A stretch of 56,615 bases of DNA from an uncultured Desulfobacteraceae bacterium (GTDB lineage: Bacteria > Desulfobacterota > Desulfobacteria > Desulfobacterales > Desulfobacteraceae). The translations under genes and the position numbers were made by a program. Each line of letters opens with the position of its first letter. Position 1 is the stretch's first letter. The notes below the pieces were generated by a model. That model was not told where the DNA came from. It ran no database searches and worked only from the letters and a program-made list of their open reading frames with translations. This document shows positions 102-21,791 of this stretch, piece after piece. Where the stretch lies: the NCBI GenBank assembly GCA_913041495.1, contig CAJWHT010000011.1, forward strand, positions 1 to 56,615. Direction: 5' to 3'.

Positions 102-806
102 GAACGGCGTCGCGTCGGAGGGCATGAGGCCCTGGTGGTATTTGACGATGTGTTTGTTCCCTGGGACCGGGTGTTCATGTGCGGGGAGCACGAATTCGCA
201 GGGCCGTTGGTGGAGCAGTTCGCCTCCTACCACCGCCAGAGCTATGCCTGCAAATGCGGGGTGGGGGATGTGCTCATCGGCGCCTCCCAGACCATTGCCC
301 AGTACAACGGGGTGGCAACGGCCTCCCATATTAAGGACAAGCTCATTGAAATGAACCATCTCAACGAAACCCTTTACGCCGGGTCCGTGGCCTGCGCCTG
401 CAAAGGAGAACGTAAGCCTTCGGGCACCTTCATGGTCAATACCCTGCTGGCCAACGTATCCAAGCAGAACGTCACCCGGTTCCCCTATGAAATCGCGCGG
501 CTGGCCCAGGATATTGCCGGCGGACTTCTGGTGACCCTGCCCTCGGAAGCGGATTTCAATGCCGCTGAGATATCCGGCTGGCTGGAGAAGTACTTTAAAG
601 GAGATGAGCGTATTTCAACCCAGGACCGGCGGCGGATCCTCCGGCTGATTGAAAATATCTGTTTCGGCACGGCAGCGGTGGGGTATCTCACCGAATCCAT
701 GCACGGGGCCGGTTCCCCCCAGGCCCAGCGGATCATGATTTCCAGGCAGGCGGACATGAACCGTAAACAGGCGCTGGCAAAAAAACTGGCAGGTATCAGC
801 GGCTGA
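102..806 (+). CDS. 4-hydroxybutyryl-CoA dehydratase-like (HpaB family) protein, N-terminally truncated
   Basis: This is the C-terminal half of a flavin and [4Fe-4S] enzyme of the 4-hydroxyphenylacetate 3-hydroxylase superfamily, 4-hydroxybutyryl-CoA dehydratase/vinylacetyl-CoA isomerase branch. It shows VVFDDVFVPWDRVFMCGE, a HRQSY stretch with the cluster-ligand region, GVGDVLIGA and the C-terminal ESMHGAGSPQAQR block. In the characterised AbfD enzyme the ligands are a Cys-x3-Cys pair plus His and Cys seven positions apart. Here the His (231-233) is followed by Cys at +6 and +8, so the spacing is one residue short. The N-terminal Cys pair lies outside the preserved part. A 65-bp gap separates it from the acyl-CoA dehydrogenase. 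It is a paralogue of the complete gene two positions downstream. The substrate is not determined. Confidence 0.8.
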   Translation, partial: ERRRVGGHEALVVFDDVFVPWDRVFMCGEHEFAGPLVEQFASYHRQSYACKCGVGDVLIGASQTIAQYNGVATASHIKDKLIEMNHLNETLYAGSVACACKGERKPSGTFMVNTLLANVSKQNVTRFPYEIARLAQDIAGGLLVTLPSEADFNAAEISGWLEKYFKGDERISTQDRRRILRLIENICFGTAAVGYLTESMHGAGSPQAQRIMISRQADMNRKQALAKKLAGISG

Positions 807-871
807 TACGCTGTTTTACGCCTTTATCATAAGAATTACAGACCTCAAATTTTCAAGGAGAAACACAGACC

Positions 872-2680
872 ATGGCGCAACAACTTTCAGATAAACGGGA
901 TATCGATTTTGTCATCTGGGAACAACTGGACGGCGAGGCAGTGCTGGAAAATGAGAAGTTCGACGAATTCAACAGGAAAACCTGCGAATTGATCATCAAA
1001 GAGGCCAAAAGCATCGCGGTCAAGGAACTGCTGCCCACCATGAAGGACGGAGACGAGATCGGGGTGACCCTGACAAAAGAAGGGGTCAAAGTCCCGGAAT
1101 CCTTCCGGCGTCCCTTTGAACTGCTCAAGGAAGGCGAATGGGCAGGGCTTCCCATACCCCCTGAGATGGGCGGGCAGGGGGCGCCCAAAGTGATCGGTTA
1201 TGTGGCAGCGGAGCAGTTCATGGCAGCCAACTGGGCCATCAACTGCTACAACGGCATGGGATTGGGGACGGCCCTGATGATCCAGATGTTCGGAACGCCT
1301 GAACAGCGGGAAACCTACGTTAAAAAACTGGTGGCCGCCGAGTGGGGCGGCACCATGCTGCTCACAGAGTCGGATGCAGGATCGGATGTGGGGGCGCTCA
1401 CCACCACGGCTACACGGAATGACGACGGCACATATTCCATCACCGGCAACAAGATTTTCATCACCAACGGCGACCATGACCTGGCTGAAAACATTATCCA
1501 TCCGGTTCTGGCCCGCATTGAGGGAGATCCCGCGGGCACCAAGGGCATTTCCATTTTCATCGTACCCAAATACCTGGTGAACGAAGATGGCAGCATCGGC
1601 GAATTCAACGATGTGGTCTGCACCGGGGTCGAGGAAAAGCACGGGATTCACGGTTCCGCCACTTGCAGCATGGCCATGGGCTCCAAGGGCAATTGCAAGG
1701 GCTACCTTCTTGGGGAAGAGCGGGAAGGTATGAAAATCATGTTCTACATGATGAACGACGCGCGGCTGAACAGCGGGCTCCAGGGGCTGGCCTATGCCTC
1801 TGCCGCCTATATGGAGGCGCTCAATTACGCAAGACAGCGTATCCAGGGCCGTGACCTGGCCGATAAGGCGGACCGCGGGGCAAAGCCGGTATCCATCATT
1901 CACCACCCGGATGTCCGGCGCAACCTTCTGCGCATGAAATCCTACGTGTCCGGCATGCGCTCCTTTTTTTACTACTCCGCCCTTGTCATGGAAAATATTG
2001 AGATGGCTGACGGAGATAATTCCGATGATGAGGCTTACTTAAGCCTGCTGACCCCGATACTCAAAGACTACCTTGCAGTCATGGGGTATGAGGTGTGCAA
2101 CCAGGCCATCCAGGTGTTTGGCGGGGCCGGATACACAAAGGACTACCTGGTGGAGCAGTATGCCAGGGACTGCCGTATTGCCTCCATCTATGAGGGCACC
2201 TCCGGTATTCAGGCCATGGACCTTCTGGGCCGGAAGCTGGGATCCAAAAAAGGGGCCGTGTTCGCCAGGATGATGACCGAGATAAAACAGAGCGTCAACC
2301 GGGCAAGGGAATTTGAGAGCCTTGTTCCCCTGGCTGAAAAGGTTGACAGTGCCGCGGACCGGATGGCCGCCGTTGCAGGGTCTTTAGGGGCTTTGGCCCG
2401 GTCGGAAAAATTTAAAACCGCCTTTGCCCATTCCCTGCCCTTCCTCTATGCCATGGGCGATGTGATCATGGCATGGATGCTGCTCTGGCGGGCTGCCACA
2501 GCATCGCAAAAGCTGGCCGGCAAAGTCAAGAAAAAGGATCTGGCCTTCTATGAGGGCGAGGTCAAAACCGCGGAGTTTTTCATCTGCACTGAAATTCCCG
2601 TGACCATGGGAAAACTGGCTGCTATCGAGGATGGCTGCTCTGCGGCCATAGACATCGCGGACGCAGGATTCGGAGGATAA
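872..2680 (+). CDS. Acyl-CoA dehydrogenase, long (~600 aa) type
   Basis: A 602-residue FAD-dependent acyl-CoA dehydrogenase that should oxidise an acyl-CoA to the 2-enoyl-CoA and pass electrons to ETF. It is longer than the usual ~380 residues, with an N-terminal extension and an extra C-terminal domain of the FadE5/DmdC kind. Visible blocks are LTESDAGSDVGALTTTA (FAD and substrate region), KIFITNGDHD, QVFGGAGYTKDYLVEQ and YEGTSGIQAMDL. Glu441 in the YEGT motif is the likely catalytic base. The start is supported by AAGGAG 14 bp upstream. It sits between two 4-hydroxybutyryl-CoA dehydratase paralogues, four bases from the second, which suggests the three products act on linked intermediates. 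The DmdC-like architecture alone does not fix the substrate. Confidence 0.92.
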   Translation: MAQQLSDKRDIDFVIWEQLDGEAVLENEKFDEFNRKTCELIIKEAKSIAVKELLPTMKDGDEIGVTLTKEGVKVPESFRRPFELLKEGEWAGLPIPPEMGGQGAPKVIGYVAAEQFMAANWAINCYNGMGLGTALMIQMFGTPEQRETYVKKLVAAEWGGTMLLTESDAGSDVGALTTTATRNDDGTYSITGNKIFITNGDHDLAENIIHPVLARIEGDPAGTKGISIFIVPKYLVNEDGSIGEFNDVVCTGVEEKHGIHGSATCSMAMGSKGNCKGYLLGEEREGMKIMFYMMNDARLNSGLQGLAYASAAYMEALNYARQRIQGRDLADKADRGAKPVSIIHHPDVRRNLLRMKSYVSGMRSFFYYSALVMENIEMADGDNSDDEAYLSLLTPILKDYLAVMGYEVCNQAIQVFGGAGYTKDYLVEQYARDCRIASIYEGTSGIQAMDLLGRKLGSKKGAVFARMMTEIKQSVNRAREFESLVPLAEKVDSAADRMAAVAGSLGALARSEKFKTAFAHSLPFLYAMGDVIMAWMLLWRAATASQKLAGKVKKKDLAFYEGEVKTAEFFICTEIPVTMGKLAAIEDGCSAAIDIADAGFGG

Positions 2681-2684
2681 TTCC

Positions 2685-4181
2685 ATGAGAACCAAACAAG
2701 AATACCTGGACAGCCTGGTTAAAAAGCACGACAACCTCTATCTGGACGGGCAGATCATATCCAGGGACCATGAGAGCCTGAAAGCCGCGGCCAATGTCAT
2801 CGGCACCACCTTTGACCTGGCCCAGGATCCTGCACTGGCTAAGATTACCACGGCCAAAAGCCACATCTCAGGAGAGACCGTCAACCGGTTCACCCACATT
2901 CACCAGACCCCGGACGACCTGCACAGGAAGCAGGACATGACCCGGATGTATTGCCAGAAGGTGTCCCAGTGCATCGGCCGGTGCATGGGAGTGGATGCCA
3001 TGAACGCCATCAACTGCGTTTCCTATGAGGCGGACAGGGCCAACAAGGGACAAACAAAATACCACAAGAATTTTCTTAAATGGCTGGAACGGGTCCAGAA
3101 AGAGGATCTTGTGGGCGCCTGCGCCCAGACGGATGTCAAAGGGCATAGAATGAAACGCCCGGCCGAGCAGGATGATCCCGACCAGTACCTGCGTGTGGTG
3201 GAAAAAAATGACAAGGGCATCGTGGTCCGGGGCTGCAAGGTGCACATTACCTTTGCCTCCGTTGCCGACGAAATCCTGGTGCTGCCCACCCGTTCCCTGA
3301 CCAAAGACGAAGGGGACTGGGCCGTGGCCTTTGCCGTGGAAGCGGACCATCCGGACATCAAGCAGGTGCTCTCCCCCCACAACCTGCGGCCCCGGGGCAA
3401 GGATTTCAAGCGGGGCTTTGACTGGGGGTTTGTTGACTCCTATGTCATTTTCGAGGACGCCTTTGTACCGTGGGAGCGGGTGTTTCTCTGCGGGGAAACC
3501 CAGCACGGCGGTATCTGCGCCCTGTTGTTCGCATTGTTTCATCGTCACTCCTACTCCGGATGCAAACCGGCGGTGGGGGACATGCTGGTGGGACTGGCCA
3601 CCCTGGCTGCCGAGGTCAACGGTATTGAGAAAACCCCCCATGTCCGGGAGAAAATCGCCGAACTGATCACCATCACCGAACTGGGATACGCCGCCGGGTT
3701 TACTGCTTCAGCCAAAGGGGAACCCAAGGTCTATATCCCGGGTGTGGGCAAGATGGATTACGGCCCCGGTGCCTGTATACCGGACTCCATTTATGCCAAC
3801 GTGGGCCGGTGCATCACCGGGGAAGCCGTTTTCAAGGAGCAGCAGATCCTGTGCGAGATTGCCGGCGGCATGCCCGCCACCTTCCCCCACGAGGGGGATT
3901 TCCTCAATCCTGAAACATCTGAACTGCTTAAAAAATACGTCAACCGGAGTGATGCCATGAGTGTGGAGGAGCAGATCAAGTTCTGGATGCTGTTCTTTGA
4001 CTACACCAATTCCGGGGCATCCGGCGCCATCGCCTATGGGGCCATGCACGGCGGCGGTTCTCCCATCATGGAGCAGATCGCCATCTACAGCCAGTACGAT
4101 CTTGAAAAACGCAAGGACATCGTCAAGACCCTGGCGGGTATGGACGTAACGTCAGGCACCCCGGGGGACCATGGCGTCTAA
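2685..4181 (+). CDS. 4-hydroxybutyryl-CoA dehydratase / vinylacetyl-CoA isomerase family protein
   Basis: A full-length (498 aa) member of the radical dehydratase branch of the HpaB superfamily. The known enzyme converts 4-hydroxybutyryl-CoA to crotonyl-CoA using FAD and a [4Fe-4S] cluster and also isomerises vinylacetyl-CoA. The expected ligands are visible: Cys96 and Cys100 in CIGRCMGVDAMN, and His286 with Cys293 in FHRHSYSGCK, at the same His-x6-Cys spacing as the studied enzyme. It also has the nucleotide-binding ITFASVADEILVLPTR region and the VPWERVFLCGE signature. The ATG follows GGAGG inside the last codons of the dehydrogenase gene, and its end overlaps the carboxyltransferase start by 11 bp. 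Family assignment is strong. The precise substrate is inferred only, since Desulfobacterales carry several divergent copies. Confidence 0.88.
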   Translation: MRTKQEYLDSLVKKHDNLYLDGQIISRDHESLKAAANVIGTTFDLAQDPALAKITTAKSHISGETVNRFTHIHQTPDDLHRKQDMTRMYCQKVSQCIGRCMGVDAMNAINCVSYEADRANKGQTKYHKNFLKWLERVQKEDLVGACAQTDVKGHRMKRPAEQDDPDQYLRVVEKNDKGIVVRGCKVHITFASVADEILVLPTRSLTKDEGDWAVAFAVEADHPDIKQVLSPHNLRPRGKDFKRGFDWGFVDSYVIFEDAFVPWERVFLCGETQHGGICALLFALFHRHSYSGCKPAVGDMLVGLATLAAEVNGIEKTPHVREKIAELITITELGYAAGFTASAKGEPKVYIPGVGKMDYGPGACIPDSIYANVGRCITGEAVFKEQQILCEIAGGMPATFPHEGDFLNPETSELLKKYVNRSDAMSVEEQIKFWMLFFDYTNSGASGAIAYGAMHGGGSPIMEQIAIYSQYDLEKRKDIVKTLAGMDVTSGTPGDHGV

Positions 4182-5736
4182 AGACCAGCCGTTTAAGGCT
4201 CAGATGGACCGGCTGGAAAGGGACGCCGCCCGTGTATACCGGATGGGGGGCGATGAGAAGATCGCCCGCCAGCACGGGGCCGGACGCTATACCGCAAGGG
4301 AGCGGATTGAAAAGCTCCTGGACCCGGATTCCTTTTTCGAGTTGGGCCGCTTTGCCCATTCCGACCTTCCCGAGGCCGCCCAAAAGACCCCGGCCGACAG
4401 TAAGATATCCGGCTTCGGCAACATCCTGGGCCGGCGGGTGGCGGTTTCCGCCAATGATTTTACCGTGCTGGCCGCCACCACGGCCAGGGTCTCTGGCCGG
4501 AAGGAGGCTGAACTCAAGTCCTATGCCCATGCCAAGGGATATCCCCTGGTCTACCTGGGAGAGGCCGGCGGTGCCCGGATGCCGGATATCATGGGGTCAA
4601 AAGGCCTGGCCTCATTCGGGGGCGGCGGATTTGCCACTTATACCTCCGTCATGAGCCGGACCCGGCGGTCCCCCATGGTCACGGCCATTCTCGGGGAATG
4701 TTACGGCATGCCTACCTGGATGGCTTGCCTGTCGGACTTCGTGGTCCAGGTCCGGGGTACGGCCATGGGAGTGTCAGGGCCGCGGGTACTGAAAATGGCC
4801 CTTGGCGAAACGGTCTCCGACGAAGAGCTTGGCGGGGTGTCGGTGCACAGCGGGATCACCGGTTGCATTGATGCCGTGGCTGAAAATGAAGATCATTGTT
4901 TTGATCACATCCGCAGGTTTTTAAGTTACCTGCCTTCAAACAGCGATGCCCTGCCGCCGGTTTATGCCGTGCCCGAAGGATCCGGCAGTGACATGCCCCG
5001 TATCCTTGATCTTTTGCCGGAACAACGGAACCGCACCTATGACATGACGCGGATCCTGTCTTGTATCGTGGACAGGGACAGCCTCTATGAGATCAAACCC
5101 GGGTTCGGCCGTTCGGTAATCACGGCCCTTGCCAGGATCAACGGAAAATCAGTGGGGATTGTGGCCAGCCAGCCACTTTACCTGGCCGGTGCCATGGATT
5201 GCGACGGCATTGACAAAGTGACCGGATTTTTGTGCCTCTGCGATTCTTTCAACGTGCCTTTGATTTTCTGCCACGATACCCCGGGGTTCCTGGTGGGCAA
5301 GGATGCGGAACACAACCGGGTGGGCGCCCGGGTCATGAATTTCATGAATGCCCTGGGCCAGGTGACCGTGCCCAAGATCGCCGTGATCATGCGTAAAAGT
5401 TTCGGTATGGCTTTCTGGAACATGGGCGGGTCCGGCTGCGCTACGGATTTCATCGTGGCCTGGCCCATGGCCGAGATGAGTTTTGTGGATCCGGTGGTGG
5501 CGGCCAATGTGGTTTACGGCGGCAAGACAGTCTCTTCCCAAGAGCGGGAGCGCCTTACCCGGCGGTTCGTGGATGACGCCTCTCCCTTCGGGGCAGCCGG
5601 GGCCTACCATATCCATGACGTCATCGATCCTGCCACCACCCGCGACTATATTATCACTGCCCTGGATATTGCCCAAAACGGCAGCCACCTGTCCCTGGGC
5701 AGCCATAACCTTGCGAACTGGCCCACAAAATTTTGA
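4171..5736 (+). CDS. Acyl-CoA carboxylase, carboxyltransferase subunit
   Basis: A 521-residue protein of the propionyl/methylcrotonyl-CoA carboxylase beta and glutaconyl-CoA decarboxylase alpha family, which moves a carboxyl group between biotin and an acyl-CoA. It has the two crotonase-like halves: the N-terminal RYTARERIEKLLDPDSF start and GGARMPDIMG oxyanion region, and the C-terminal FCHDTPGFLVGKDAE and MRKSFGMAFWNMGG blocks. No biotin carboxylase, biotin carrier or membrane decarboxylase subunit lies nearby, so its partner is elsewhere or it works differently. The start overlaps the dehydratase stop, which suggests translational coupling. Either carboxylation of an unsaturated acyl-CoA or decarboxylation of a glutaconyl-type CoA ester would fit the neighbourhood. 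Confidence 0.9.
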   Translation: MASKDQPFKAQMDRLERDAARVYRMGGDEKIARQHGAGRYTARERIEKLLDPDSFFELGRFAHSDLPEAAQKTPADSKISGFGNILGRRVAVSANDFTVLAATTARVSGRKEAELKSYAHAKGYPLVYLGEAGGARMPDIMGSKGLASFGGGGFATYTSVMSRTRRSPMVTAILGECYGMPTWMACLSDFVVQVRGTAMGVSGPRVLKMALGETVSDEELGGVSVHSGITGCIDAVAENEDHCFDHIRRFLSYLPSNSDALPPVYAVPEGSGSDMPRILDLLPEQRNRTYDMTRILSCIVDRDSLYEIKPGFGRSVITALARINGKSVGIVASQPLYLAGAMDCDGIDKVTGFLCLCDSFNVPLIFCHDTPGFLVGKDAEHNRVGARVMNFMNALGQVTVPKIAVIMRKSFGMAFWNMGGSGCATDFIVAWPMAEMSFVDPVVAANVVYGGKTVSSQERERLTRRFVDDASPFGAAGAYHIHDVIDPATTRDYIITALDIAQNGSHLSLGSHNLANWPTKF

Positions 5737-5780: not shown

Positions 5781-6542
5781 ATGAAATCACACTTTTCACT
5801 GGAAAAACGCATTGCCCTTATTACCGGCGCCAGCAGGGGGATCGGGGAGGCCATCGCCGCTGGGTTTGCCGACCACGGCGCACATTGCCTGCTGGTATCA
5901 AGAAAGATGGACAGCCTTGAAAAGGCCGTGGATAGGATCCGGCGGCAGGGCGGCAGGGCAGATGCCCTCACCTGCAACCTGGGGGATCTTGCCCAGGTTG
6001 ACGCGCTGGCCCAGAAAATAAAGGCCGACTACGGATGCCTGGATATCCTGGTGAACAACGCCGCCACCAACCCGTATTTCGGCTTAATGGAAGGCATTGA
6101 TGCCGGAAGATGGGACAAGACCTTTGATGTTAATCTCAAAGGCCCTTTTTTCATGATTCAGAAAACCCTGACACTTTTATCCGCCTCGGGCCGGGGATCC
6201 ATTATCAATGTCAGTTCGGTGAACGGGATACGGCCGCCGGTGAACCAGGGGGTCTATTCCATCACAAAGGCCGGGATCATTGCCATGACAAAGGGGCTGG
6301 CCAAAGAGCTGGCATCCCGCAAGATCCGTGTGAATGCCCTGTTGCCCGGGCTGACCCAGACCCGGTTTTCACGGACCCTGACTGAAAATGACGACCTGCT
6401 CAGCGAGGCCTGCGCCGCCATCCCCATGGCGCGGCAGGCCCAGCCTTTGGAGATGGCGGGCGCGGCCCTGTTCCTGGCATCGGATGCCGCATCCTACACC
6501 ACCGGCACCGCCATTGTCTGCGACGGCGGTATGCTGGCCTGA
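5781..6542 (+). CDS. Short-chain dehydrogenase/reductase
   Basis: A 253-residue classical SDR with the Rossmann glycine motif TGASRGIG (residues 15-22), the NNAA segment, the catalytic Tyr159-x3-Lys163 pair in YSITK, and the C-terminal TGTAIVCDGG motif seen in FabG-like enzymes. It should oxidise or reduce a hydroxy/oxo group with NAD(P). GGAGGAG precedes the ATG by 5 bp. It follows the carboxyltransferase by 44 bp and precedes the thiolase by 58 bp, so it probably acts on a hydroxyacyl-CoA in the same pathway. The substrate cannot be read from sequence. Confidence 0.9.
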   Translation: MKSHFSLEKRIALITGASRGIGEAIAAGFADHGAHCLLVSRKMDSLEKAVDRIRRQGGRADALTCNLGDLAQVDALAQKIKADYGCLDILVNNAATNPYFGLMEGIDAGRWDKTFDVNLKGPFFMIQKTLTLLSASGRGSIINVSSVNGIRPPVNQGVYSITKAGIIAMTKGLAKELASRKIRVNALLPGLTQTRFSRTLTENDDLLSEACAAIPMARQAQPLEMAGAALFLASDAASYTTGTAIVCDGGMLA

Positions 6543-6600
6543 AACGATGCCCGGTGAAGATGAAGTGAACCCTTATAAATTTTGCAAGGAGAAGACTGAA

Positions 6601-7809
6601 ATGAGTACGCGAGAAGTTGTTTTTGTTGACGCGGTCCGGACGGCTTTCGGCCGAATGGGCGGTTCCCTTAAAGATCTGTATGCCACCCGGATGGCAGGTA
6701 TTGCCATAGACGGTTTATTGGATAAAACAAACGTTCATGAAAAGGCCCATGTGGACAGCGTGTTCCTGGGGTCCGCCACCCATTGCTCCGTGGCCCTGAA
6801 CCCGGCCCGCCATGCCGTATTGTCCACAAAGCTGCCCCAGTCCACCTCTGCCTCCTACGTGGAGATGCAGTGCGGGTCCGCCATCGACGCCATCAACCAT
6901 GCGGCCTGGAAGATCCTGGCCGGCCAGGCGGACATCGTTATTGCCGGCGGCATGGAATCCTACTCCCAGATGCCCTTTAAATTCCCGTCATCCACCCCGC
7001 CCCACAGGCTGATGCCGCCCATGCCCATCACCCAGAAAATGTCTCCTTTGGAAGAGGAGTGCATCGGCATGGGGCTGACCGCTGAAAACCTGGCGGAAAT
7101 GTACGATATTCCCAGGGCCGCCGCTGACGAATTTGCCTATGCCAGCCAGGTGCGTGCCAAAGAAGCCATGGATGCGGGTTTTTTTGACGAAGAGATCATT
7201 CCCGTGAAGTTTGAGGCCACCCGCAAGACCCCCGCCTGGCAGTTTGACAGGGACGAGCATCCGCGTCCCCAGTCCACTCTGGAGGGCATGGCCAAACTGC
7301 CGTCGGTCTTTAAAAAGGACGGCACCGTGACTGCGGGCAATGCATCGGGCCAGAACGACGGGGCAGCCTTTGTCCTGATGATGGACAGGGAAAAAGCCTT
7401 GGCGCTGGGATACACCCCCATGGCCAGATGGCTGTCCGGCGCGGATGTGGGATGCGATCCTAAAATCATGGGCATCGGTCCGGCCCTGGCCATTCCCGTG
7501 GCCGCAAAAAGGGCCGGCCTCAGCGTGTCGGACATCGATGTCTTCGAGTGCAACGAAGCGTTTGCCGTCCAGAACCTGGCCGTGATCAAGGAAATTGAAA
7601 CCGCCTCGGGACAGTCCGTTGACATGGACAAGTGGAACCCCTACGGCGGCGCCATCGCCTTTGGCCATCCCAACGGTGCTTCAGGGGCCAGGATCTGCAT
7701 GTTCGCCATGCGTCACATGATCCGGAACGCCGGCCGGTACGGGGTGTTTTCCTCCTGCTGCGGCGGTGGGCTGGGTGTGGCAACTGTGATTGAAAACCTG
7801 CAACGATAA
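6601..7809 (+). CDS. Thiolase (acetyl-CoA C-acyltransferase)
   Basis: A 402-residue thiolase that cleaves 3-oxoacyl-CoA with CoA to acetyl-CoA plus a shortened acyl-CoA, or the reverse. The catalytic set is complete: nucleophile Cys91 in MQCGSAIDA, CNEAFA, His356 in GHPNGASG and Cys386 in CCGGGLG. The open frame extends to 6388, but ATG 6601 has AAGGAG 12 bp upstream and gives the normal N-terminus (VVFVDAVRTAFGR); an earlier start would overlap the SDR gene. Gene order thiolase, 3-hydroxyacyl-CoA dehydrogenase, crotonase is typical of a C4 or beta-oxidation module. Degradative (FadA-like) versus biosynthetic use is not settled. Confidence 0.93.
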   Translation: MSTREVVFVDAVRTAFGRMGGSLKDLYATRMAGIAIDGLLDKTNVHEKAHVDSVFLGSATHCSVALNPARHAVLSTKLPQSTSASYVEMQCGSAIDAINHAAWKILAGQADIVIAGGMESYSQMPFKFPSSTPPHRLMPPMPITQKMSPLEEECIGMGLTAENLAEMYDIPRAAADEFAYASQVRAKEAMDAGFFDEEIIPVKFEATRKTPAWQFDRDEHPRPQSTLEGMAKLPSVFKKDGTVTAGNASGQNDGAAFVLMMDREKALALGYTPMARWLSGADVGCDPKIMGIGPALAIPVAAKRAGLSVSDIDVFECNEAFAVQNLAVIKEIETASGQSVDMDKWNPYGGAIAFGHPNGASGARICMFAMRHMIRNAGRYGVFSSCCGGGLGVATVIENLQR

Positions 7810-7831: not shown

Positions 7832-8704
7832 ATGAATATCGACGACATTAAAAATATCAGCGTTATCGGCGCCGGCAACATGGGGCACCAGATCAGCCTG
7901 CACTGCGCCATCAAGGGGTACAACGTCACCTGTACCGACGTGAGTGAAAAGATGCTCAAAAAAGCGGACGATTTTGTGGACACCTATCTTGCCGGCCGGG
8001 TGGAAAAAGGAAAACTCACCCAGGACCAGGCCCGGGAGGCCCGTGCCCGGATCTGCTTTACCCCGGATCTTGAGACGGCGGTCAAAGACGCTGATTTTGT
8101 CATCGAAGCGGTGCTGGAGGTGCTGGACCTCAAACTCAAGCTCTTTGCCGACATTGATAAAATGGCCCCCCCCCATGCCATTCTGGCCACCAACAGTTCC
8201 GCCATTGTCAGTTCGAAAATCGCCGATGCCACGGACCGGCCGGAAAAGGTGCTCAACGTCCATTTTTTTAATCCGGCCCTGGTGATGAAACTGGTGGAAG
8301 TGGTGCAGGGACCCCATGTTTCGGACGAAACCGCAAGGATCGCCATGGCGTTGTGCGACAGGCTGGACAAGGTATCCGTCCATGTCAAGAAAGAGGTCTC
8401 AGGGTTCCTGCTCAACCGGATTTTCAAGGTCATCGGTATGGAAGCCCAGTGGATGCTGGAAATGGGCGTGGCCTCGGTGGAAGATATCGACAAGGCCTGT
8501 GTCTACGGTGCCGGCCATCCCATGGGGCCCTTCAGTCTCATGGATCTTACAGGCATTGACCTGGCCTATACCATGGGCATGGAGGCATTCAAGGAAACCG
8601 GAGACCCGGCTGAACTGCCCCGGCCCAGTGTGGTGGCCCATTATGTCCAGGGGGAATACGGCCAGAAAACCGGCAAGGGCTGGTACGATTACACCAAACA
8701 ATAA
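7832..8704 (+). CDS. 3-hydroxyacyl-CoA (3-hydroxybutyryl-CoA) dehydrogenase
   Basis: A 290-residue NAD-dependent dehydrogenase that interconverts 3-hydroxyacyl-CoA and 3-oxoacyl-CoA. The N-terminal Rossmann domain carries GAGNMG (residues 13-18). The central region has LATNSSAIVSSKIA and the catalytic-histidine segment NVHFFNPALVMKLVEVV. The C-terminal helical domain has GFLLNRIFKV and HPMGPFSLMDLTGID. This is the single-domain Hbd type rather than a FadB fusion. GAAGGAG precedes the start by 6 bp. The gene lies 22 bp after the thiolase and 65 bp before the crotonase. A second, more divergent paralogue occurs at 11043, so at least two chain-length or substrate classes may be handled. Confidence 0.93.
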   Translation: MNIDDIKNISVIGAGNMGHQISLHCAIKGYNVTCTDVSEKMLKKADDFVDTYLAGRVEKGKLTQDQAREARARICFTPDLETAVKDADFVIEAVLEVLDLKLKLFADIDKMAPPHAILATNSSAIVSSKIADATDRPEKVLNVHFFNPALVMKLVEVVQGPHVSDETARIAMALCDRLDKVSVHVKKEVSGFLLNRIFKVIGMEAQWMLEMGVASVEDIDKACVYGAGHPMGPFSLMDLTGIDLAYTMGMEAFKETGDPAELPRPSVVAHYVQGEYGQKTGKGWYDYTKQ

Positions 8705-8769: not shown

Positions 8770-9549
8770 ATGGATTTAAACAAGATGACATTTGAGAAGA
8801 AGGACGGCATCGGCTGGGCACGGTTCAACCGGCCTGAAAAACTCAACGCGCTCAACACCGAGGTGTTTGCTGATATCGGCACCATTGTCGCGGCCTGTGA
8901 AGACGACGATGAGGTCCGGGTACTGGTGCTGACCGGGTCAGACAAGGTCTTTGCCGCAGGGGCCGACATTGACGGGATGGCCCAAAGCACCATCAAGGAT
9001 GCATTTGCCATGACGGACAGGGGGATCCCTGTCACCGAACGGTTGGCGGATTTCCCAAAACCCACCATTGCCGCCATCTCCGGCTATGCCCTTGGGGGCG
9101 GGCTGGAGGCGGCCCTGTGCTGTGATTTCAGGATCGCGGATCACACCGCCATGGTCGGGTTGCCGGAAATCAACCTGGGGATCATTCCCGGGGGGGGCGG
9201 CACCCAGCGGCTGCCGCGGCTGATCAACCCCAGCAAAGCCCTGGAACTGATCATGACCGGTGACATTATTGAAGCCAAAACAGCCCTTAATCTTGGCATT
9301 CTTAACCAGGTGGTCGCCCAGGGTAAGCTGGAAGCTGCGGTGACGGAATTGGCCAAAAAACTGATGGCCAAACCCGCCATGGGAATCCGGGCAGCCAAGA
9401 CCGCCGTGCGCAAAGGGCTGAACGTCTCACTTAAAGATGGTATCGCTTTAGAGCAGGACCTTTTCTGCATGCTTTTCGGCACCCAGGACCAGAAGGAGGG
9501 GATGACCGCCTTTCTGGAAAAAAGAAAACCTGTGTTTAAACATACCTGA
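8770..9549 (+). CDS. Enoyl-CoA hydratase (crotonase family)
   Basis: A 259-residue crotonase that should add water to a 2-enoyl-CoA such as crotonyl-CoA. Both catalytic glutamates of the family are present: Glu113 in LGGGLEAAL and Glu133 in GLPEINLGIIPGGGG, exactly 20 residues apart as in classical enoyl-CoA hydratase. The GADIDGM segment and the C-terminal EGMTAFLEKRKPVF tail are also typical. GGAG precedes the ATG by 7 bp. With the neighbouring hydroxyacyl-CoA dehydrogenase and thiolase it completes the route from crotonyl-CoA to two acetyl-CoA, which would follow naturally from a 4-hydroxybutyryl-CoA dehydratase product. Confidence 0.94.
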   Translation: MDLNKMTFEKKDGIGWARFNRPEKLNALNTEVFADIGTIVAACEDDDEVRVLVLTGSDKVFAAGADIDGMAQSTIKDAFAMTDRGIPVTERLADFPKPTIAAISGYALGGGLEAALCCDFRIADHTAMVGLPEINLGIIPGGGGTQRLPRLINPSKALELIMTGDIIEAKTALNLGILNQVVAQGKLEAAVTELAKKLMAKPAMGIRAAKTAVRKGLNVSLKDGIALEQDLFCMLFGTQDQKEGMTAFLEKRKPVFKHT

Positions 9550-9600: not shown

Positions 9601-9692
9601 TGCCTTTTGAAAACTGCCCCGGGTCGAAGGCTGCATGGTGCGGCCCAATCGAATCCCGGCGTAACGCCCGGTGCGCAGTTTTCAAACAGGCA
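9601..9692 (+). other. Large structured inverted-repeat element before the DUF362 gene
   Basis: The outer arms TGCCTTTTGAAAACTGC (9601-9617) and GCAGTTTTCAAACAGGCA (9675-9692) pair along 17 bp with a single bulged base. Inside, CCGGGTCGA can pair with TCGAATCCCGG, and GGCGTAACGCC forms a small hairpin, giving a three-part fold of about 92 nt. It ends four bases before the ATG at 9697, and the only Shine-Dalgarno-like bases (ACAGG) are buried in the right arm. The design suggests an RNA element controlling translation of the DUF362 gene, or a small mobile or repeat sequence. It matches no RNA family or attC consensus that I recognise. Confidence 0.5.
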
Positions 9693-9696
9693 CTTT

Positions 9697-11046
9697 ATGA
9701 AAAGGAAGGTTTTTTTGGATAAAAAACGGGTTTCCATTATTGATTACCAACGTCCATATGCATCCGTGGCCGAGGCGGTCAGACGCTGCGGGGCCGAATC
9801 CATGCTGTCCTGTGCCTCCTCCGTGTTCATCAAGCCCAATGTGGTGTTTTGGACCCGGCACACCCCATTTCCCAAATACGGGGTCATCACCACCTCGCGG
9901 GTGGTGGAAGACATGGTGGTACTGCTCAAGGATATGGGCGTAAAGCGGATTTACATCGGAGAAGGCGGTGTTACCCGCAGACCCGGGGACACCCGGACCT
10001 TTGCCCATGCCTTTGAGGCGCTGGGGTATCTTAGGCTTGCCAAAAGATACGGGGTAAAGGTGATCCAGGTCCTGGAGGAACCTTTTGCCCGGTGCCGGCT
10101 GGGAAAGGGGATCAGCCTGAATTTTAACCGGCAGGCCCTGGAAAGTGACCTGGTCATCAGCCTGCCGGCGCTTAAAACCCACAGCCAGACCGTTGTCAGC
10201 CTGGGCATAAAGAACCTGAAGGGACTCATTGATATGACGTCCAGGAAAACCTGCCACAACCCTGACCCTGAAAAAGACCTGCACGTTCATGTGGCGCAGC
10301 TTGCAAAGCCCTTTAACCAGGTGTTCACCCTCATCGACGGGATTTATTCCCTGGAACGGGGGCCGGGATTTGACGGAAAGATGCACAGGCGAAATCTTCT
10401 GATCGGGTCAACGGATCCCCTGGCTGCGGACAAGGCCGGGGCCGTGGCCCTGGGGATTGAACCGTCCGCCGTGCCCTATATTGTCCATGCCGCCGAAGAC
10501 CAGGGCAGGCCCCTTGGCTTAGGTGACATTGATATTTCAGGCAGGCCCCTTGACGGGCGGGACTGGGTTCACGGCCACGAGTTTGATTTTGCCGAAGACG
10601 GTGAAAAGGCCCTGCCCCTGCCCATGGCGGCCAAAGGCATGAAAGGACTGTTCTACCGCAAGTACGACGATACCATGTGCACCTATTGTTCGGCAATCAA
10701 CGGGGTGGTGCTGTCAGCGGTTTTCAAGGCCTGGGACGGCAGGGGATTTGACCAGGTGGAGGTGCTTACCGGAAAAAAGATGGTGCCGGCCAGGGGGATG
10801 AATACCACCATCCTGCTGGGCAAGTGTATGTCCCGTGTCCATAAGGACAATCCTGACATCCGGCGGATGATCCGGGTGAAAGGCTGTCCCCCGGATCTAA
10901 AGGACATTGCCGCAGCCTTTGAGCGGGCAGGTGTCCCGGTGGATACAAAGATGTTTGAGGCGGTTGACATGCTGCCGGGCACCTTTCTGAAACGGGTGAA
11001 GGACCGGCCCGGGTTTGATGAATCATTTTATGAGGTGAGAGTATGA
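9697..11046 (+). CDS. DUF362 domain-containing protein
   Basis: A 449-residue protein of the DUF362 family, recognised from FIKPNVVFWTRHTP, the VVEDMVVLLKDMGVKRIYIGEGG region, LVISLPALKTHSQTVVSLGIKNLKG and LIDGIYSLERGPG. The biochemical role of the family is not established; members often occur with iron-sulfur or electron-transfer proteins. Unlike many relatives it lacks a recognisable CxxCxxCxxxCP ferredoxin insert; only CTYC stands out near residue 328. The open frame reaches 9607, but the first 30 codons fall in a strong inverted repeat, so ATG 9697 is preferred. It overlaps the next hydroxyacyl-CoA dehydrogenase by 4 bp (ATGA), which indicates co-expression with acyl-CoA metabolism. Confidence 0.82.
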   Translation: MKRKVFLDKKRVSIIDYQRPYASVAEAVRRCGAESMLSCASSVFIKPNVVFWTRHTPFPKYGVITTSRVVEDMVVLLKDMGVKRIYIGEGGVTRRPGDTRTFAHAFEALGYLRLAKRYGVKVIQVLEEPFARCRLGKGISLNFNRQALESDLVISLPALKTHSQTVVSLGIKNLKGLIDMTSRKTCHNPDPEKDLHVHVAQLAKPFNQVFTLIDGIYSLERGPGFDGKMHRRNLLIGSTDPLAADKAGAVALGIEPSAVPYIVHAAEDQGRPLGLGDIDISGRPLDGRDWVHGHEFDFAEDGEKALPLPMAAKGMKGLFYRKYDDTMCTYCSAINGVVLSAVFKAWDGRGFDQVEVLTGKKMVPARGMNTTILLGKCMSRVHKDNPDIRRMIRVKGCPPDLKDIAAAFERAGVPVDTKMFEAVDMLPGTFLKRVKDRPGFDESFYEVRV

Positions 11047-11900
11047 CCCAAGATGCAAATACGCAGGTGGCAGTCATCGGTGCGGGATTCATGGGGACCG
11101 GCATCGCCCAGGTCTGCATCCGGGCGGGCATGCCCTGTGTGCTGATCGATACGGATGACACCTGCCTTGACCGGGCCAGGAAGGATACTGAAGCATGGCT
11201 GGGAAAAGGCCACAACTCAGGGAAGCAAAAGCCTTGTCTGCCCCAGATGCTTTCGTTGCTTGAGACCCGCAATTCCCTGGACATACCGGCGGATGCCTCC
11301 TGGGTAATCGAATCGGTATTTGAAGATGAAACGTTGAAAAAGACCCTGCTTGCCGCGGTGGAAAAACAGGTGGGCCCGGACACGGCAATTGCCACCAACA
11401 CCTCTTCCATTCCGGTGGGGGCCCTGGCAGCGGCGCTGGAGAGGCCGGACCGGTTCGTGGGGCTCCACTTTTTCGGCCCGGTGCCCCGCATGGGCCTTGT
11501 GGAGGTGGTCAAGGGCGGGGACACCAGCGAAAAGACCTTTGCCGCTGCCATGGCGTTTTCAAAGGCCCTGGGCAAAACCCCGGTGGGGGTAAGAAAAGAT
11601 ATCCCGGGGTTTGTCATGAACCGTATCTTTGCTGCGGCATTCAAGGAATGCCAGGACCTGGCCGCCGAGGGGGTTGCCAGTGTGGAAGATATTGATGCGG
11701 GCATGCGTTTAGGATACGGCTGGCGGATCGGGCCTTTCCAGATTGCGGACAACGCAGGCCTGGATACTGTGGCCCGGATTAACCGGTCCATGAAGGCCAT
11801 GGACCAGTCCTGTCTTTACAGCAGGGCTGATCTGGTGGAAAAGCTGGTGGAAAAGGGATGTCTGGGCCGCAAGTCCGGACGGGGATTTTATACGTATTAA
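11043..11900 (+). CDS. 3-hydroxyacyl-CoA dehydrogenase (second copy)
   Basis: A 285-residue NAD-dependent 3-hydroxyacyl-CoA dehydrogenase with AVIGAGFMGTGIAQV at the N-terminus, an ATNTSSIPVGALA segment, the catalytic-histidine region GLHFFGPVPRMGLVEVV and the C-terminal GFVMNRIFAAAFKE. It differs clearly from the copy at 7832: the segment around residue 60 is GKGHNSGKQKPCLPQ and FFNP is replaced by FFGP. Translation is coupled to the DUF362 gene by the ATGA overlap. It probably handles a different 3-hydroxyacyl-CoA, for example longer or branched; this is inferred from duplication only. Confidence 0.92.
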   Translation: MTQDANTQVAVIGAGFMGTGIAQVCIRAGMPCVLIDTDDTCLDRARKDTEAWLGKGHNSGKQKPCLPQMLSLLETRNSLDIPADASWVIESVFEDETLKKTLLAAVEKQVGPDTAIATNTSSIPVGALAAALERPDRFVGLHFFGPVPRMGLVEVVKGGDTSEKTFAAAMAFSKALGKTPVGVRKDIPGFVMNRIFAAAFKECQDLAAEGVASVEDIDAGMRLGYGWRIGPFQIADNAGLDTVARINRSMKAMDQSCLYSRADLVEKLVEKGCLGRKSGRGFYTY

Positions 11901-11943: not shown

Positions 11944-12408
11944 ATGGCAACCGTTGACATTGACACCTTTGACGCGCTCAAAGATTTGAAAGGCCGGCCC
12001 CTGCCCAAAGGCAGATGGATTAAGGTCACCCAGGATATGGTGGATGCCTTCGCCAGGGCCACTCTGGATCATCAGTGGATCCATACGGACACTGACCGTG
12101 CCAGGCGGGAGTCTCCTTTTGGGGGCCCTGTTGCCCACGGTTTTCTGTCCCTCTCCCTTGTTTCATACATGATCGGGGATCTGGTGAATCTCAAGAGTAT
12201 GAAAATGGGGGTCAACTACGGGGTGAACCGGGTCCGGCTGCCCAGCCCGGTGCCGGTGGGCAGCCGGCTGCGGCTCAACTGCCGGGTGGGGAAGGTTGAG
12301 GCGGCGGAGGCAGGGGGGCTGAAGGTGTTCTGGCAGTGCGAGGTGGAAATTGAACATCAAAGCAAGCCGGCCTGCGTCTGTGAACTCATTTCTCTGATAT
12401 TTGAATAG
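11944..12408 (+). CDS. MaoC-like (R)-specific enoyl-CoA hydratase
   Basis: A 154-residue hot-dog fold protein of the MaoC/NodN hydratase family. The hydratase motif is present as Asp42-HQWI-His47 (D-x4-H), followed by SPFGGPVAHGFLSLSL, which matches the 'hydratase 2' pattern. Such enzymes hydrate 2-enoyl-CoA to the (R)-3-hydroxyacyl-CoA, the opposite stereochemistry to the crotonase upstream. It lies 43 bp after the second hydroxyacyl-CoA dehydrogenase and just before the lipase gene. It may link beta-oxidation intermediates to (R)-hydroxyacyl uses, or simply process a separate substrate. Confidence 0.88.
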   Translation: MATVDIDTFDALKDLKGRPLPKGRWIKVTQDMVDAFARATLDHQWIHTDTDRARRESPFGGPVAHGFLSLSLVSYMIGDLVNLKSMKMGVNYGVNRVRLPSPVPVGSRLRLNCRVGKVEAAEAGGLKVFWQCEVEIEHQSKPACVCELISLIFE

Positions 12409-12411
12409 GCA

Positions 12412-13275
12412 TTGCCTGAGGTGGCTATTTATCCGCATATCCTGGTGGCCGAGGGCGGCGGCATGAGAAACGTTTTTGCCGCCGGGGTTCTGGACCGCTT
12501 CCTTGCGCAGGGCTTTGACCCTTTTGACCTGTGCATGGGGGTATCATCCGGTGCCGGCAACCTGGCCGCCTTCATGGCCGGAATGCCCGGGCGGAACCTG
12601 TTGATCTACACCTCTTATTTTCTGGATCCTGAATTTATCAGTGTCAGAAAATTTCTCAGGGGCGGCCATCTTATGGATCTGGACTGGATGTGGGAGAAAA
12701 CCATTGCCGATGTCCGCCTGGATCTGAAAACCATTTACAGCCGGGGGCGGCCTTTTCTGGTCTGCCTGACCGATGTGGACACCGGACAGGCGGTGTACAA
12801 ACCGACCCGGGCCGGAAATCTGGAAGCGGTGTTGAAAGCGTCCAGCGCCCTGCCCGTGATCTACCGCGGATTTCCCCGCATAGACGGCAGACCGTATACC
12901 GACGGCGGGATCTCTGATCCCTTGCCCGTGAAAACAGCCCTGGCGCTGGGAGGGAAGAAAATTATGGTGATCCGGTCGCGGCCGGCCGCATACATGAAAA
13001 AAGAGGCGATGACCCAGGCTTTGCTCAGACTGGCGTTTGCCAAGTACCCGGCCCTGGCCGGGGCGGCGGCATCCCGGGTGGACCGATACAATGCCGCTGT
13101 GAAAACCATTCAATACCCGCCAAAAGGGGTGGATATCATCCAGGTCAGTCCGCCTGACGGGCTTGATCTGGGGCGGCTGAGCCGGAACCGTGGCCGTATC
13201 CTCAGTACCTATCTTCTGGGAAAAGCGGCCGGAGACAAGGCCATCCTGGACTGGCAACAGGGGGAAGACAAATGA
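12412..13275 (+). CDS. Patatin-like phospholipase
   Basis: A 287-residue patatin-family lipid acyl hydrolase with a Ser-Asp dyad. The oxyanion glycine loop is EGGGMRNVF near the N-terminus, the nucleophile is Ser45 in GVSSGAG and the aspartate is Asp164 in DGGISDP. Because the glycine loop comes so early, translation must begin at TTG 12412 or GTG 12421; ATG 12463 would remove the loop. No strong ribosome-binding site is visible for either. It starts 4 bp after the MaoC stop and overlaps the thioesterase gene by 4 bp. It resembles bacterial YjjU-type patatins and would release fatty acids from membrane or storage lipids. The exact start is uncertain. Confidence 0.88.
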   Translation: MPEVAIYPHILVAEGGGMRNVFAAGVLDRFLAQGFDPFDLCMGVSSGAGNLAAFMAGMPGRNLLIYTSYFLDPEFISVRKFLRGGHLMDLDWMWEKTIADVRLDLKTIYSRGRPFLVCLTDVDTGQAVYKPTRAGNLEAVLKASSALPVIYRGFPRIDGRPYTDGGISDPLPVKTALALGGKKIMVIRSRPAAYMKKEAMTQALLRLAFAKYPALAGAAASRVDRYNAAVKTIQYPPKGVDIIQVSPPDGLDLGRLSRNRGRILSTYLLGKAAGDKAILDWQQGEDK

Positions 13276-14042
13276 AATGTAAGCTGGAAAAGGCGGTGGA
13301 TGCCTATGATGCCGGCCCGGACAGGGTGCTTGGCCTCAAACCTTTGATGTGCCGATTTCAGGACGTGGTGGCCGAGCACTCAAAAATGTCGGGATGCGGC
13401 CTTGAGTGGCTCCTTGACCAGGGACGGGCCTGGGTGATGCACCGGATATGCATCCGGATTCACCAGATGCCGGTGCTTGGAGAGACCCTGACCTTTGTAA
13501 CCTGGCACAGGGGAGAAAAGGGGTACAAGGCGTTCAGGGACTTTGAAGTCTGGAGCGGGGCGCAAAAGCGGATTTCCGCATCAAGCCTCTGGCTTTTTAT
13601 GGATCTTCACAATGCCAGGATACTCAAAGTGCCCAGGGAAAGCCGCCAATGGTATACGGTGGAAACGGACACCGCCATGGAACCCGGTACGGATGCCGGT
13701 ATGGACAGTTTCAGGCCGGTGCCGAGGACCCCGCTGCCGGAGGTGGACGTGATGACCATCCGGCGGTCGGATATCGATCCCATCGGCCATGTCAACAATG
13801 CTGTTTACCTGGATTTTCTGGAAACGGCGGTGGGCCGCCTTTCCTCGGAACCCCGGAAAATAAACCGGCTGATGATTCAGTATCACAAGGAAATTTCAGG
13901 AGATATTCCAAAGATCCGGGTCGGCATCGCAGAGGAAAACGGCCGGTTTGATTTTACCCTGGCATCTGAAACGGGAATTCACGCGTTTGGAGAGTTTACC
14001 ACGGGGCAATTCACTGAAAACCATGGATCGCACCCCGGATGA
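13272..14042 (+). CDS. Acyl-ACP thioesterase family protein
   Basis: A 256-residue protein with two hot-dog repeats in the acyl-ACP thioesterase family. The second repeat has the catalytic-type segment DIDPIGHVNNAVYLDFLE with His173 and Asn175-Asn176. The first repeat has the LEWLLDQGRAWVM and VLGETLTFVTWHRG features of these thioesterases. It hydrolyses an acyl thioester to a free fatty acid. Its ATG overlaps the patatin stop, and its end overlaps the ferredoxin-fusion gene by 4 bp. With the lipase before it and an acyl-CoA synthetase after it, the set looks able to release and reactivate fatty acids. The carrier (ACP or CoA) and chain length are unknown. Confidence 0.85.
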   Translation: MKCKLEKAVDAYDAGPDRVLGLKPLMCRFQDVVAEHSKMSGCGLEWLLDQGRAWVMHRICIRIHQMPVLGETLTFVTWHRGEKGYKAFRDFEVWSGAQKRISASSLWLFMDLHNARILKVPRESRQWYTVETDTAMEPGTDAGMDSFRPVPRTPLPEVDVMTIRRSDIDPIGHVNNAVYLDFLETAVGRLSSEPRKINRLMIQYHKEISGDIPKIRVGIAEENGRFDFTLASETGIHAFGEFTTGQFTENHGSHPG

Positions 14043-15214
14043 GAAAGGATGGAAAAATGGAAAAAGCAAGTGCCAAAGACCTGTTGACCCGGGCAACCGG
14101 GGTGGTGTGCCGGCAGGGGATGGTCCCCTTCCCTCTAAGTGATGCCGCCGTTGGGATTATCCGCATTGTGGCCGGCAGTGAACAAGATGAGCTGGCATTG
14201 ATCTGTGCGTTTGAGGCCGGGGCATCCCTGACCCTTGACCAGTTGTCCGCGGCCAGCGGATTTGATCCGGACAAGGCTGAACGGCTGGCCGATGCCCTGG
14301 CTAAAAAGGGCCTGGTGTTCAACCAGCCCAGCTCTGCCGGGGTCAAAGTGTTCCGGCTCATGCCGTTTATGATTGTCGGATTGATGGAATATCTGTTCAT
14401 GGGGGAGCTGACTGGATCGGATGAGGAAAAGGAACTGGCCCGGCTGTTTGAGCAGATGGTGGGCCAGTTACGGGCGCAGACCCAGGAAAATTATGAGCAA
14501 ATGGTTCCCCTGTTCGAGAAGATGAAGGCCACGGACCGCACCGTCCCCCTGCAAAATACGTCAAGCGGGAAACCGGTCACTCTGATTCCGGTGGATAAAG
14601 GTATTACAGTCCCGGATGAGGTCATTCTGCCCAGCCAGTCCGTGGATGAGATCATAGACAAATTTGACGATATCGCTGTGGGGTATTGTTTCTGCCGTCA
14701 ACGTCGCAAAGCCCTGGGCGGGTCATGCAGCACGGATGCCCCCGGGCTCAACTGTTTTACATTCGGCAAGTCCGCAAGGTACACCAGTGCCCAGGGGTTT
14801 GCCAGAAAAGTGTCCAAGACGGAAGCAAGGCAGATCATGGCCCAGGCGGAGGACGCAGGGCTGGTGCACAAGGCGTTTCATCCCGGGTCCAGGGAGGAGC
14901 GGCTCGAAACAAGTATCTGCAACTGCTGCAAGGACTGCTGCGATACCATGAACCTGTGGCGCAGCGGGACAACCCCCCTGGTCAATTCCACCTATCATTT
15001 GGCCGTGGTGGATACCGGGGGGTGCACCGGATGCGGTACCTGCGAAGAGCTTTGCCCCACGGAGGCGATCCGCGTGACAAACAATGGCACGGCAGAGGTG
15101 GATGACATGTCTTGTTTCGGGTGCGGCGTCTGTGCCCGGTTCTGTCCTGAAACGGCGATTTCTCTCAAGCAGGGACTGCGGCGGGTGTTCATCCTGCCGC
15201 CGCGGTTACGTTAG
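14039..15214 (+). CDS. Winged-helix-like / dual [4Fe-4S] ferredoxin fusion protein
   Basis: A 391-residue protein. Roughly residues 40-110 look like a helix-turn-helix or winged-helix segment (ELALICAFEAGASLTLDQL followed by FDPDKAERLADALAKKGLV). A helical linker follows, then a Cys-rich middle (CFCRQRRKALGGSC, CNCCKDCC), and at the C-terminus two classical ferredoxin motifs, CTGCGTCEELCP and CFGCGVCARFCP, each able to hold a [4Fe-4S] cluster. Translation may start at ATG 14039, which overlaps the thioesterase stop, or at ATG 14057. Proteins of this layout occur near CoA-ester operons in sulfate reducers, but I know of no proven function. It could be an electron-transfer partner or a redox-sensing regulator. 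Confidence 0.75.
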   Translation: MRKDGKMEKASAKDLLTRATGVVCRQGMVPFPLSDAAVGIIRIVAGSEQDELALICAFEAGASLTLDQLSAASGFDPDKAERLADALAKKGLVFNQPSSAGVKVFRLMPFMIVGLMEYLFMGELTGSDEEKELARLFEQMVGQLRAQTQENYEQMVPLFEKMKATDRTVPLQNTSSGKPVTLIPVDKGITVPDEVILPSQSVDEIIDKFDDIAVGYCFCRQRRKALGGSCSTDAPGLNCFTFGKSARYTSAQGFARKVSKTEARQIMAQAEDAGLVHKAFHPGSREERLETSICNCCKDCCDTMNLWRSGTTPLVNSTYHLAVVDTGGCTGCGTCEELCPTEAIRVTNNGTAEVDDMSCFGCGVCARFCPETAISLKQGLRRVFILPPRLR

Positions 15215-18560: not shown

Positions 18561-18793
18561 CTTCTCCTTTGGTTTAGATACAGGTCCGCGTGCTGGTAAC
18601 AGAAAATAAAATCCTATGTTATTTGTCCTGGGTTTTCAATAGCTGCGATAGATTTTTTATTAATTAATGAAATTAATAAATTTTTATTAACACAATTAAT
18701 TAAATTCCTTGAAACCTATTGTAATTAAATGATATGCATACCTAATTATTTTGAGTGTTAAATATTGTTGTTAATGTGTATTGGAGGTGGTGT
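18561..18793. promoter_or_regulatory. AT-rich divergent promoter region between HMG-CoA reductase and thiolase
   Basis: A 233-bp intergenic stretch, much richer in A+T than its surroundings, separates two divergent genes. It is dense in TTAATT/AATTAA words between 18658 and 18705 that form overlapping partial palindromes and could bind a regulator. Toward the thiolase, TTGAAA (18709-18714) and TATGCA (18733-18738) are 18 bp apart, a plausible but imperfect sigma-70 promoter. No gene is seen inside. Confidence 0.5.
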
Positions 18794-21125: not shown

Positions 21126-21218
21126 CACACCGGGTCAGAAATAAATCATTAAAATCCTGCCTGTTGAGGGCCGGTTGCCACCTGCCTTCAACAGGAGACT
21201 TTCAAATGGGAGCTTTCT

Positions 21219-21731: not shown

Positions 21732-21791
21732 TCTGCCCGGGGGATGATGACCCTGTACGGCAGACCGTTCCAATAATTTAAGGAAACATTT

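Follow-up and report, generated by a model that had tools for sequence, protein, structure and literature searches.

A distinct sister class of 4-hydroxybutyryl-CoA dehydratase homologues in anaerobic bacteria, with a tentatively predicted role on other 4-hydroxyacyl-CoA esters

The stretch of DNA analysed here, called the window, comprises bases 1-56615 of contig C11 (CAJWHT010000011.1) from the genome of an uncultured Desulfobacteraceae bacterium (5.77 Mb in 328 contigs). At its start lie three reading frames, all on one strand: a truncated homologue of the 4-hydroxybutyryl-CoA dehydratase AbfD (gene 1), an acyl-CoA dehydrogenase (ACAD) and a second AbfD homologue (gene 3), which is the main subject of this study. 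AbfD is the textbook radical dehydratase and, to our knowledge, is known for one main substrate. The features at this end of the contig are the following.

1-107, + strand: IMP dehydrogenase fragment, in-frame fusion to gene 1 and outside the system (residues 1-35 match PDB 3r2g; no second DNA copy)
108-806, + strand: gene 1, C-terminal half of a putative canonical AbfD of the 4-hydroxybutyryl-CoA dehydratase type (PF03241; 59% identity to 1u8v; H292, C299, E257 and E455 kept; canonical clade)
872-2680, + strand: DmdC/FadE5-like ACAD, 602 aa (Pfam ACAD domains and PF12806; PDB 6ijc and 6kpt)
2685-4181, + strand: gene 3, 498 aa, AbfD-fold protein with the [4Fe-4S] ligand set, in a separate clade (D for E257, G for E455)

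Gene 1 ends 65 nt before the ACAD, 4 nt separate the ACAD from gene 3, and gene 3 overlaps the next gene, which starts at 4171. The minimal spacing around the 602-aa ACAD that a first-pass annotation of this DNA had reported was thus confirmed. The same annotation described two AbfD-type homologues enclosing the ACAD; Pfam domains, PDB relatives and reading frames bear this out, with the correction that the contig start truncates the first homologue to its C-terminal half. HpaB and HpaB_N domains were found in both genes 1 and 3 (the HpaB_N of gene 1 is a 24-residue piece only), and the best PDB relatives of both are the two solved 4-hydroxybutyryl-CoA dehydratases, 1u8v from C. aminobutyricum and 6vjr from N. 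maritimus.

The AlphaFold2 model of gene 3 (pLDDT 90.1) is closest to 1u8v and 6vjr among PDB entries, with a template modelling (TM) score of about 0.9 versus about 0.8 for HpaB-type monooxygenases. Its sequence matches the AbfD type at 4e-90 and the HpaB/TftD type at 7e-36, and it falls below the NCBIfam HpaB equivalog cut-offs (160.5 versus 480.2 bits for TIGR02309; 60.3 versus 885.2 for TIGR02310). The cluster ligands C99, C103, H292 and C299 were present in all 148 aligned AbfD-type rows, and gene 3 also retains Y296 and K300. E257 and E455, which we take to be catalytic residues of the AbfD active site, are both replaced, by D251 and G452 in gene 3 itself: position 257 is D in 104/104 gene-3-type rows, while position 455 is G (89 rows), A (14) or a gap (1). 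The 44 canonical rows carry both glutamates, and none of the 148 rows is mixed, the canonical rows being top-scoring or neighbouring proteins, with intermediate forms still possible elsewhere. In addition, Q replaces M149, an insertion is seen around gene-3 residues 352-355, and 31 alignment columns separate the two types at 90% conservation or more on each side (27 substitutions and 4 indel columns). These comparisons of fold, ligands and columns indicate that the AbfD scaffold and cluster ligands were retained in gene 3 and that other conserved positions were rebuilt.

The homologues had been called divergent, and their identities to 1u8v agree with this (about 35% for gene 3, 59-64% for gene 1). 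Phylogeny against proven AbfD, proposed as a check at the time, did not place both with it: among 85 of the 148 rows, a 100/100 branch separates 41 gene-3-type from 44 canonical rows, in an unrooted tree for which the program warned that long branches meet at this very split. The gene 3 clade itself is well supported, and we are confident that it represents a distinct AbfD sister class acting on CoA esters bound for beta-oxidation. No published description of the clade was recognised in the open-licence literature, a scope outside which most subscription papers lie. A second homologue could also be explained as an ordinary dehydratase of 4-hydroxybutyryl-CoA that merely duplicates gene 1. The same fold and cluster ligands would suit such an enzyme, but the separate clade, the uniform change at E257 and E455 and the fact that the gene-3 type co-occurs with canonical AbfD instead of replacing it make redundancy highly improbable.

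Judged by its sequence, gene 1 appears to be an ordinary AbfD and hence a putative 4-hydroxybutyryl-CoA dehydratase. AbfD homology in its frame begins near base 108, and the first 35 codons match IMP dehydrogenase instead (PDB 3r2g, E 3.7e-11). Since no second copy of bases 1-130 was found in the genome's DNA, and its only IMP dehydrogenase match lies on contig C125, we read the contig start (1 to about 107) as a chimeric assembly end. An AbfD N-terminal half of 207-209 aa, open at its 3′ side, lies at the end of contig C256 (6157 to end), after a TetR-type gene. The top 12 relatives of each half show 71-78% identity, with L137, L143 and L144 high in both lists, and about 40 residues are absent between the halves, which are probably one gene split by assembly. 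Identity to 1u8v is 64% for the N-terminal and 59% for the C-terminal half. All cluster ligands are present (C99 and C103 on the C256 half, H292 and C299 on the window half), E257, Y296, K300 and E455 are retained, and a one-residue deletion between Y296 and C299 is common to other canonical rows. With its halves joined by X for the tree, gene 1 was placed among the canonical rows, with 1u8v and 6vjr, by the 100/100 branch. A perfect inverted repeat at 793-809, followed by a T-rich stretch, marks the end of gene 1 and might split it from the ACAD transcript; a promoter and terminator scan gave nothing decisive.

AbfD-type matches were found in 115 of 291 genomes of the order, the window's own included. 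Relatives of gene 3 at 43% identity or more occur in at least 24 of these besides the genome itself, the other listed matches reaching 39% at most; the five same-genus genomes listed contained none. The named collection yielded at least 533 stretches with gene 3 relatives, and cultured holders include Desulfosporosinus lacus DSM 15449 (L084) and Geothermobacter hydrogeniphilus. By record title, the best 80 of these belong to Desulfobacterota, many Desulfosporosinus, Syntrophomonadaceae, Syntrophaceae, Dehalococcoidia and a few others; the label Myxococcota, carried by 16 of the 80 loci, is doubtful, as the records are titled Deltaproteobacteria bacterium. A canonical-like AbfD (at least 52% identical to canonical L137, or gene 1 itself) is also encoded in 24 of the 25 gene-3-positive order genomes, own included, compared with any AbfD-type match, not typed individually, in 90 of the 266 others (Fisher p 6e-10, with kinship and genome size not corrected for). 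The earlier statement that one pathway rarely needs two such enzymes must therefore be handled with care. Gene-3-positive genomes also encode further AbfD/HpaB-like proteins at 29-37% identity.

This co-occurrence also bears on the idea of a mixed complex of genes 1 and 3 with only one of the two subunit types fully catalytic. Tight linkage in the window would agree with such a complex, as would the canonical AbfD seen within the available stretch, at distances of up to 10 kb, in 9 of 96 other gene-3 loci (a fragment in one of them; the loci are from the window's order and Bacillota) and the 24/25 versus at most 90/266 genome counts. However, the gene-3 type is the sole AbfD-type match in one of the 24 other gene-3-positive order genomes (G026, 98% complete) and in at least 6 of 77 named genomes of unstated completeness (G578, Geothermobacter hydrogeniphilus; G581; G595, Peptococcaceae CEB3; G604; G626; G635). 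A canonical partner was not seen in the available stretch of 87/96 loci, many of them short, and both types hold a complete cluster ligand set. Because some genomes hold the gene-3 type with no other AbfD homologue found, an obligate heteromer is unlikely and not supported; we give the mixed complex raised by the first-pass annotation very little credence. Gene 3 is more probably a homomeric enzyme working without gene 1 subunits. Although both types commonly serve one lifestyle and in some cases occupy one locus, gene 3 does not depend on gene 1, and the recurrent pairing fits two enzymes for two related substrates. At one locus (L042 7440-12917, G059:C94), two gene-3-type genes and one canonical AbfD stand in tandem.

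The neighbourhoods of the 96 other gene-3 loci were read as same-strand runs, with L044 left out. A gene for a CoA ligase, thiolase, enoyl-CoA hydratase (ECH), 3-hydroxyacyl-CoA dehydrogenase (HAD), FadB or short-chain dehydrogenase/reductase (SDR) is present in 54 of these operons. ECH, HAD or FadB genes occur in 35, and 17 of the 35 have no ACAD in the run, as would be expected if gene 3 itself supplies the 2-enoyl-CoA. ACADs of the 600-aa kind are found in 18/96, SDR genes in 20/96 and carboxyltransferase genes in 5/96. In the window, the carboxyltransferase, SDR, thiolase and hydratases of the CoA-ester cluster announced by the first-pass annotation were located downstream of gene 3 as follows.

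4171-5736, + strand: carboxyltransferase, nearest propionyl-CoA carboxylase beta and methylmalonyl-CoA types (64% and 50% relatives in four other gene-3 operons)
5781-6542, + strand: SDR oxidoreductase, PRK07035-like (57-63% relatives in 7 other gene-3 operons)
6598-7809, + strand: thiolase 1 (69% relative in one gene-3 operon)
7832-8704, + strand: 3-hydroxyacyl-CoA dehydrogenase 1, HAD1 (58-71% relatives in 9 gene-3 operons, 8 in Bacillota)
8770-9549, + strand: enoyl-CoA hydratase
9607-11046, + strand: DUF362 protein (PF04015; DUF362 in 11/96 other gene-3 operons)
11043-11900, + strand: 3-hydroxyacyl-CoA dehydrogenase 2
11944-12408, + strand: MaoC-type hydratase (PF01575)
15620-17281, + strand: acyl-CoA synthetase, AMP-forming (PF00501/PF13193; 57% relative in one gene-3 operon)

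The relatives of HAD1, the SDR and the carboxyltransferase in other gene-3 operons suggest that parts of one pathway recur across phyla. The company of gene 3 also varies, with MaoC-type gene pairs, pairs of short ACADs, a carboxyltransferase or ABC transporters (read as branched-chain type from sequence). Such variability, together with the 31 class-defining columns, would suit an enzyme for some other CoA ester (e.g., 5-hydroxyacyl, cyclic, isoprenoid, side-chain or aromatic-derived) that carries out an elimination or desaturation new to the family. The gene company points to no single alternative substrate, however, and we consider this explanation rather unlikely. The branched or dicarboxylic substrate proposed in the first-pass annotation is neither supported nor excluded.

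Inside the cluster, 12412-15214 holds one run of a patatin-like protein with DUF6363, an acyl-ACP thioesterase and a protein with C-terminal 4Fe-4S motifs. HMG-CoA reductase (PF00368; 17388-18560, - strand) and a second thiolase (18755-19975) adjoin the cluster's CoA ligase. TRAP transporter genes DctP, DctQ and DctM and a second DctM lie at 20133-23150 and 27788-29071.

The best PDB match of the window ACAD is 6ijc, presumably a DmdC, and the matches to 6ijc, 6kpt and FadE5-type enzymes are nearly full length. Four nearly full-length paralogues in its own genome are 53-54% identical to it, whereas the ACADs of other gene-3 operons reach 37-43% among the matches listed. A 600-aa ACAD directly adjoins gene 3 in 11/96 other loci, all of them Desulfosporosinus by record title. 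A specific partnership of this ACAD type with gene 3 was therefore set aside, and the window ACAD is treated as accessory.

A hint at the substrate of gene 3 comes from a phosphotriesterase-like lactonase, which is encoded with a CoA ligase in the same run as gene 3 in 4 of the 96 operons (L039, L058, L077 and L091; Desulfobacterota and Bacillota). For the L039 protein, the best solved relatives include Dr0930 and Geobacillus lactonases. One source describes the subclass of these enzymes as degrading mainly gamma- or delta-lactones (PMC12258673), and another reports that GkaP prefers delta-decanolactone and also takes gamma-hexyl-gamma-butyrolactone (PMC4338136). Opening of a gamma-lactone would yield a 4-hydroxy acid, the substrate class of AbfD. 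In the 98 gene-3-positive genomes, 5 of 24 lactonase genes have an AbfD-type gene no more than 2 kb away (G069, G588, G595, G612 and G647), where 0.14 were expected (p 3e-7, the genomes not being independent), and the neighbour is always of the gene-3 type. In G577 the distance is 5 kb, and G595 combines the lactonase operon with gene 3 as its sole AbfD-type match. The holders of a lactonase beside a gene-3-type gene include a Deltaproteobacteria metagenome-assembled genome (MAG; L058) and a Syntrophothermus MAG (G647:C143). A neighbouring metallo-beta-lactamase, considered as a second candidate lactonase, has mixed PDB relatives.

Based on these observations, we tentatively predict that gene 3 is a radical [4Fe-4S]/FAD dehydratase for 4-hydroxyacyl-CoAs other than 4-hydroxybutyryl-CoA, a reading that we hold at somewhat less than even confidence. 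Gene 1 would convert 4-hydroxybutyryl-CoA to crotonyl-CoA, and gene 3 would most likely take a 4-hydroxyacyl-CoA with an alkyl or other group at C4. Sources of such substrates could be gamma-lactones, 4-hydroxy fatty acids or 4-oxo acids of the levulinate kind, which the SDR could reduce to the corresponding 4-hydroxy acids, and a CoA ligase would form the 4-hydroxyacyl-CoA. Gene 3 would then remove the hydrogens at the alpha and beta positions through one-electron chemistry that the flavin mediates at the cluster, and expel the 4-hydroxyl, giving a 2-enoyl-CoA from which hydratase, 3-hydroxyacyl-CoA dehydrogenase and thiolase would produce acetyl-CoA and a shortened acyl-CoA. With C5 substrates the latter would be propionyl-CoA, for use by the carboxyltransferase, and the propionyl-CoA type of this enzyme fits such substrates. 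The cofactors, the direction of the reaction and the oligomeric state are predicted in the same manner.

Several observations weigh against this prediction. E257 and E455 are both replaced, which could signal loss of dehydration, and no biochemistry for any member of the clade was found in the literature. At least four of the 17 runs lacking an ACAD have one close by outside the run (L091, L093, L101 and L129), 23/96 operons contain one in the run, and 42/96 lack the counted beta-oxidation genes altogether, 16 of these being gene 3 alone, some at contig ends. A lactonase is missing from 92/96 operons, 19 of the 24 lactonase genes have no AbfD-type gene nearby, and in the window's own genome no lactonase of this kind passed the search threshold. 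One of the five near lactonases is the query itself, and without it 4/23 remain against 0.13 expected (p 1e-5). Lactonases of this kind also open delta-lactones, giving 5-hydroxy acids.

The loss of both glutamates would also suit another explanation, in which gene 3 keeps the vinylacetyl-CoA isomerase half of the AbfD reaction, has lost dehydration and serves as a delta-isomerase of 3-enoyl-CoAs or related unsaturated CoA esters, feeding unsaturated fatty acids into beta-oxidation. AbfD has isomerase activity besides dehydration, 6vjr was deposited as a Vinylacetyl-CoA Delta-isomerase, and gene 3, which retains the ligand set, Y296 and K300 but not E257 and E455, is placed among general beta-oxidation genes and ACADs. 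However, crotonase-type isomerases isomerise 3-enoyl-CoAs with no radical enzyme involved, and the lactonase association would be left unexplained. We regard an isomerase as a credible but doubtful assignment.

If the prediction of a dehydratase for larger 4-hydroxyacyl-CoAs is true, it would explain the anaerobic breakdown of 4-hydroxy acids and gamma-lactones longer than C4. More speculatively, the clade may be a second widespread AbfD-type radical class of ATP-independent dehydratases for C4-substituted 4-hydroxyacyl-CoAs, which would serve the breakdown of gamma-lactones and 4-oxo/4-hydroxy acids in sulfate reducers, syntrophs and Dehalococcoidia as the anaerobic counterpart of the kinase-plus-ACAD10/11/LvaC route. 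A sister class in which the ligands are conserved but two active-site glutamates are exchanged would also offer a natural experiment to distinguish residues that generate the radical from those that remove the hydroxyl. Further, where a genome annotation lists several "4-hydroxybutyryl-CoA dehydratases", some of these may be enzymes of other function, which matters when the AbfD gene serves as a marker of the 4-hydroxybutyrate carbon-fixation cycles.

Among known systems, AbfD (1u8v and 6vjr) is closely matched by gene 1, in which all tested residues are kept. Gene 3 shares with AbfD the predicted fold, the four cluster ligands, Y296 and K300, and differs in its low identity, its own clade, D257, G or A at 455, Q for M149 and the insertion at 352-355. 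HpaB/TftD-type flavin monooxygenases have the same Pfam domains (PF11794/PF03241) but are the weaker match in both sequence and structure, and HpaB is not known to carry a [4Fe-4S] cluster. The DmdC/FadE5-like 600-aa ACADs (6ijc, 6kpt) resemble the window ACAD over nearly its full length, which does not imply a specific DmdC role. The best solved relatives of the L039 lactonase include members of the PLL-B group (Dr0930, GkaP/GKL). In the literature, AbfD is cited as a mechanistic example (PMC13101534) and given as a C4 elimination enzyme (PMC8364193), and 4-hydroxyacyl-CoA is processed in Pseudomonas putida and mice by phosphorylation and then elimination (PMC12440821; PMC11342911). This LvaA/LvaC and ACAD10/11 route resembles gene 3 in its proposed task, the conversion of 4-hydroxyacyl-CoA to 2-enoyl-CoA; it employs a kinase and an ACAD-like flavoprotein, whereas gene 3 would need no ATP.

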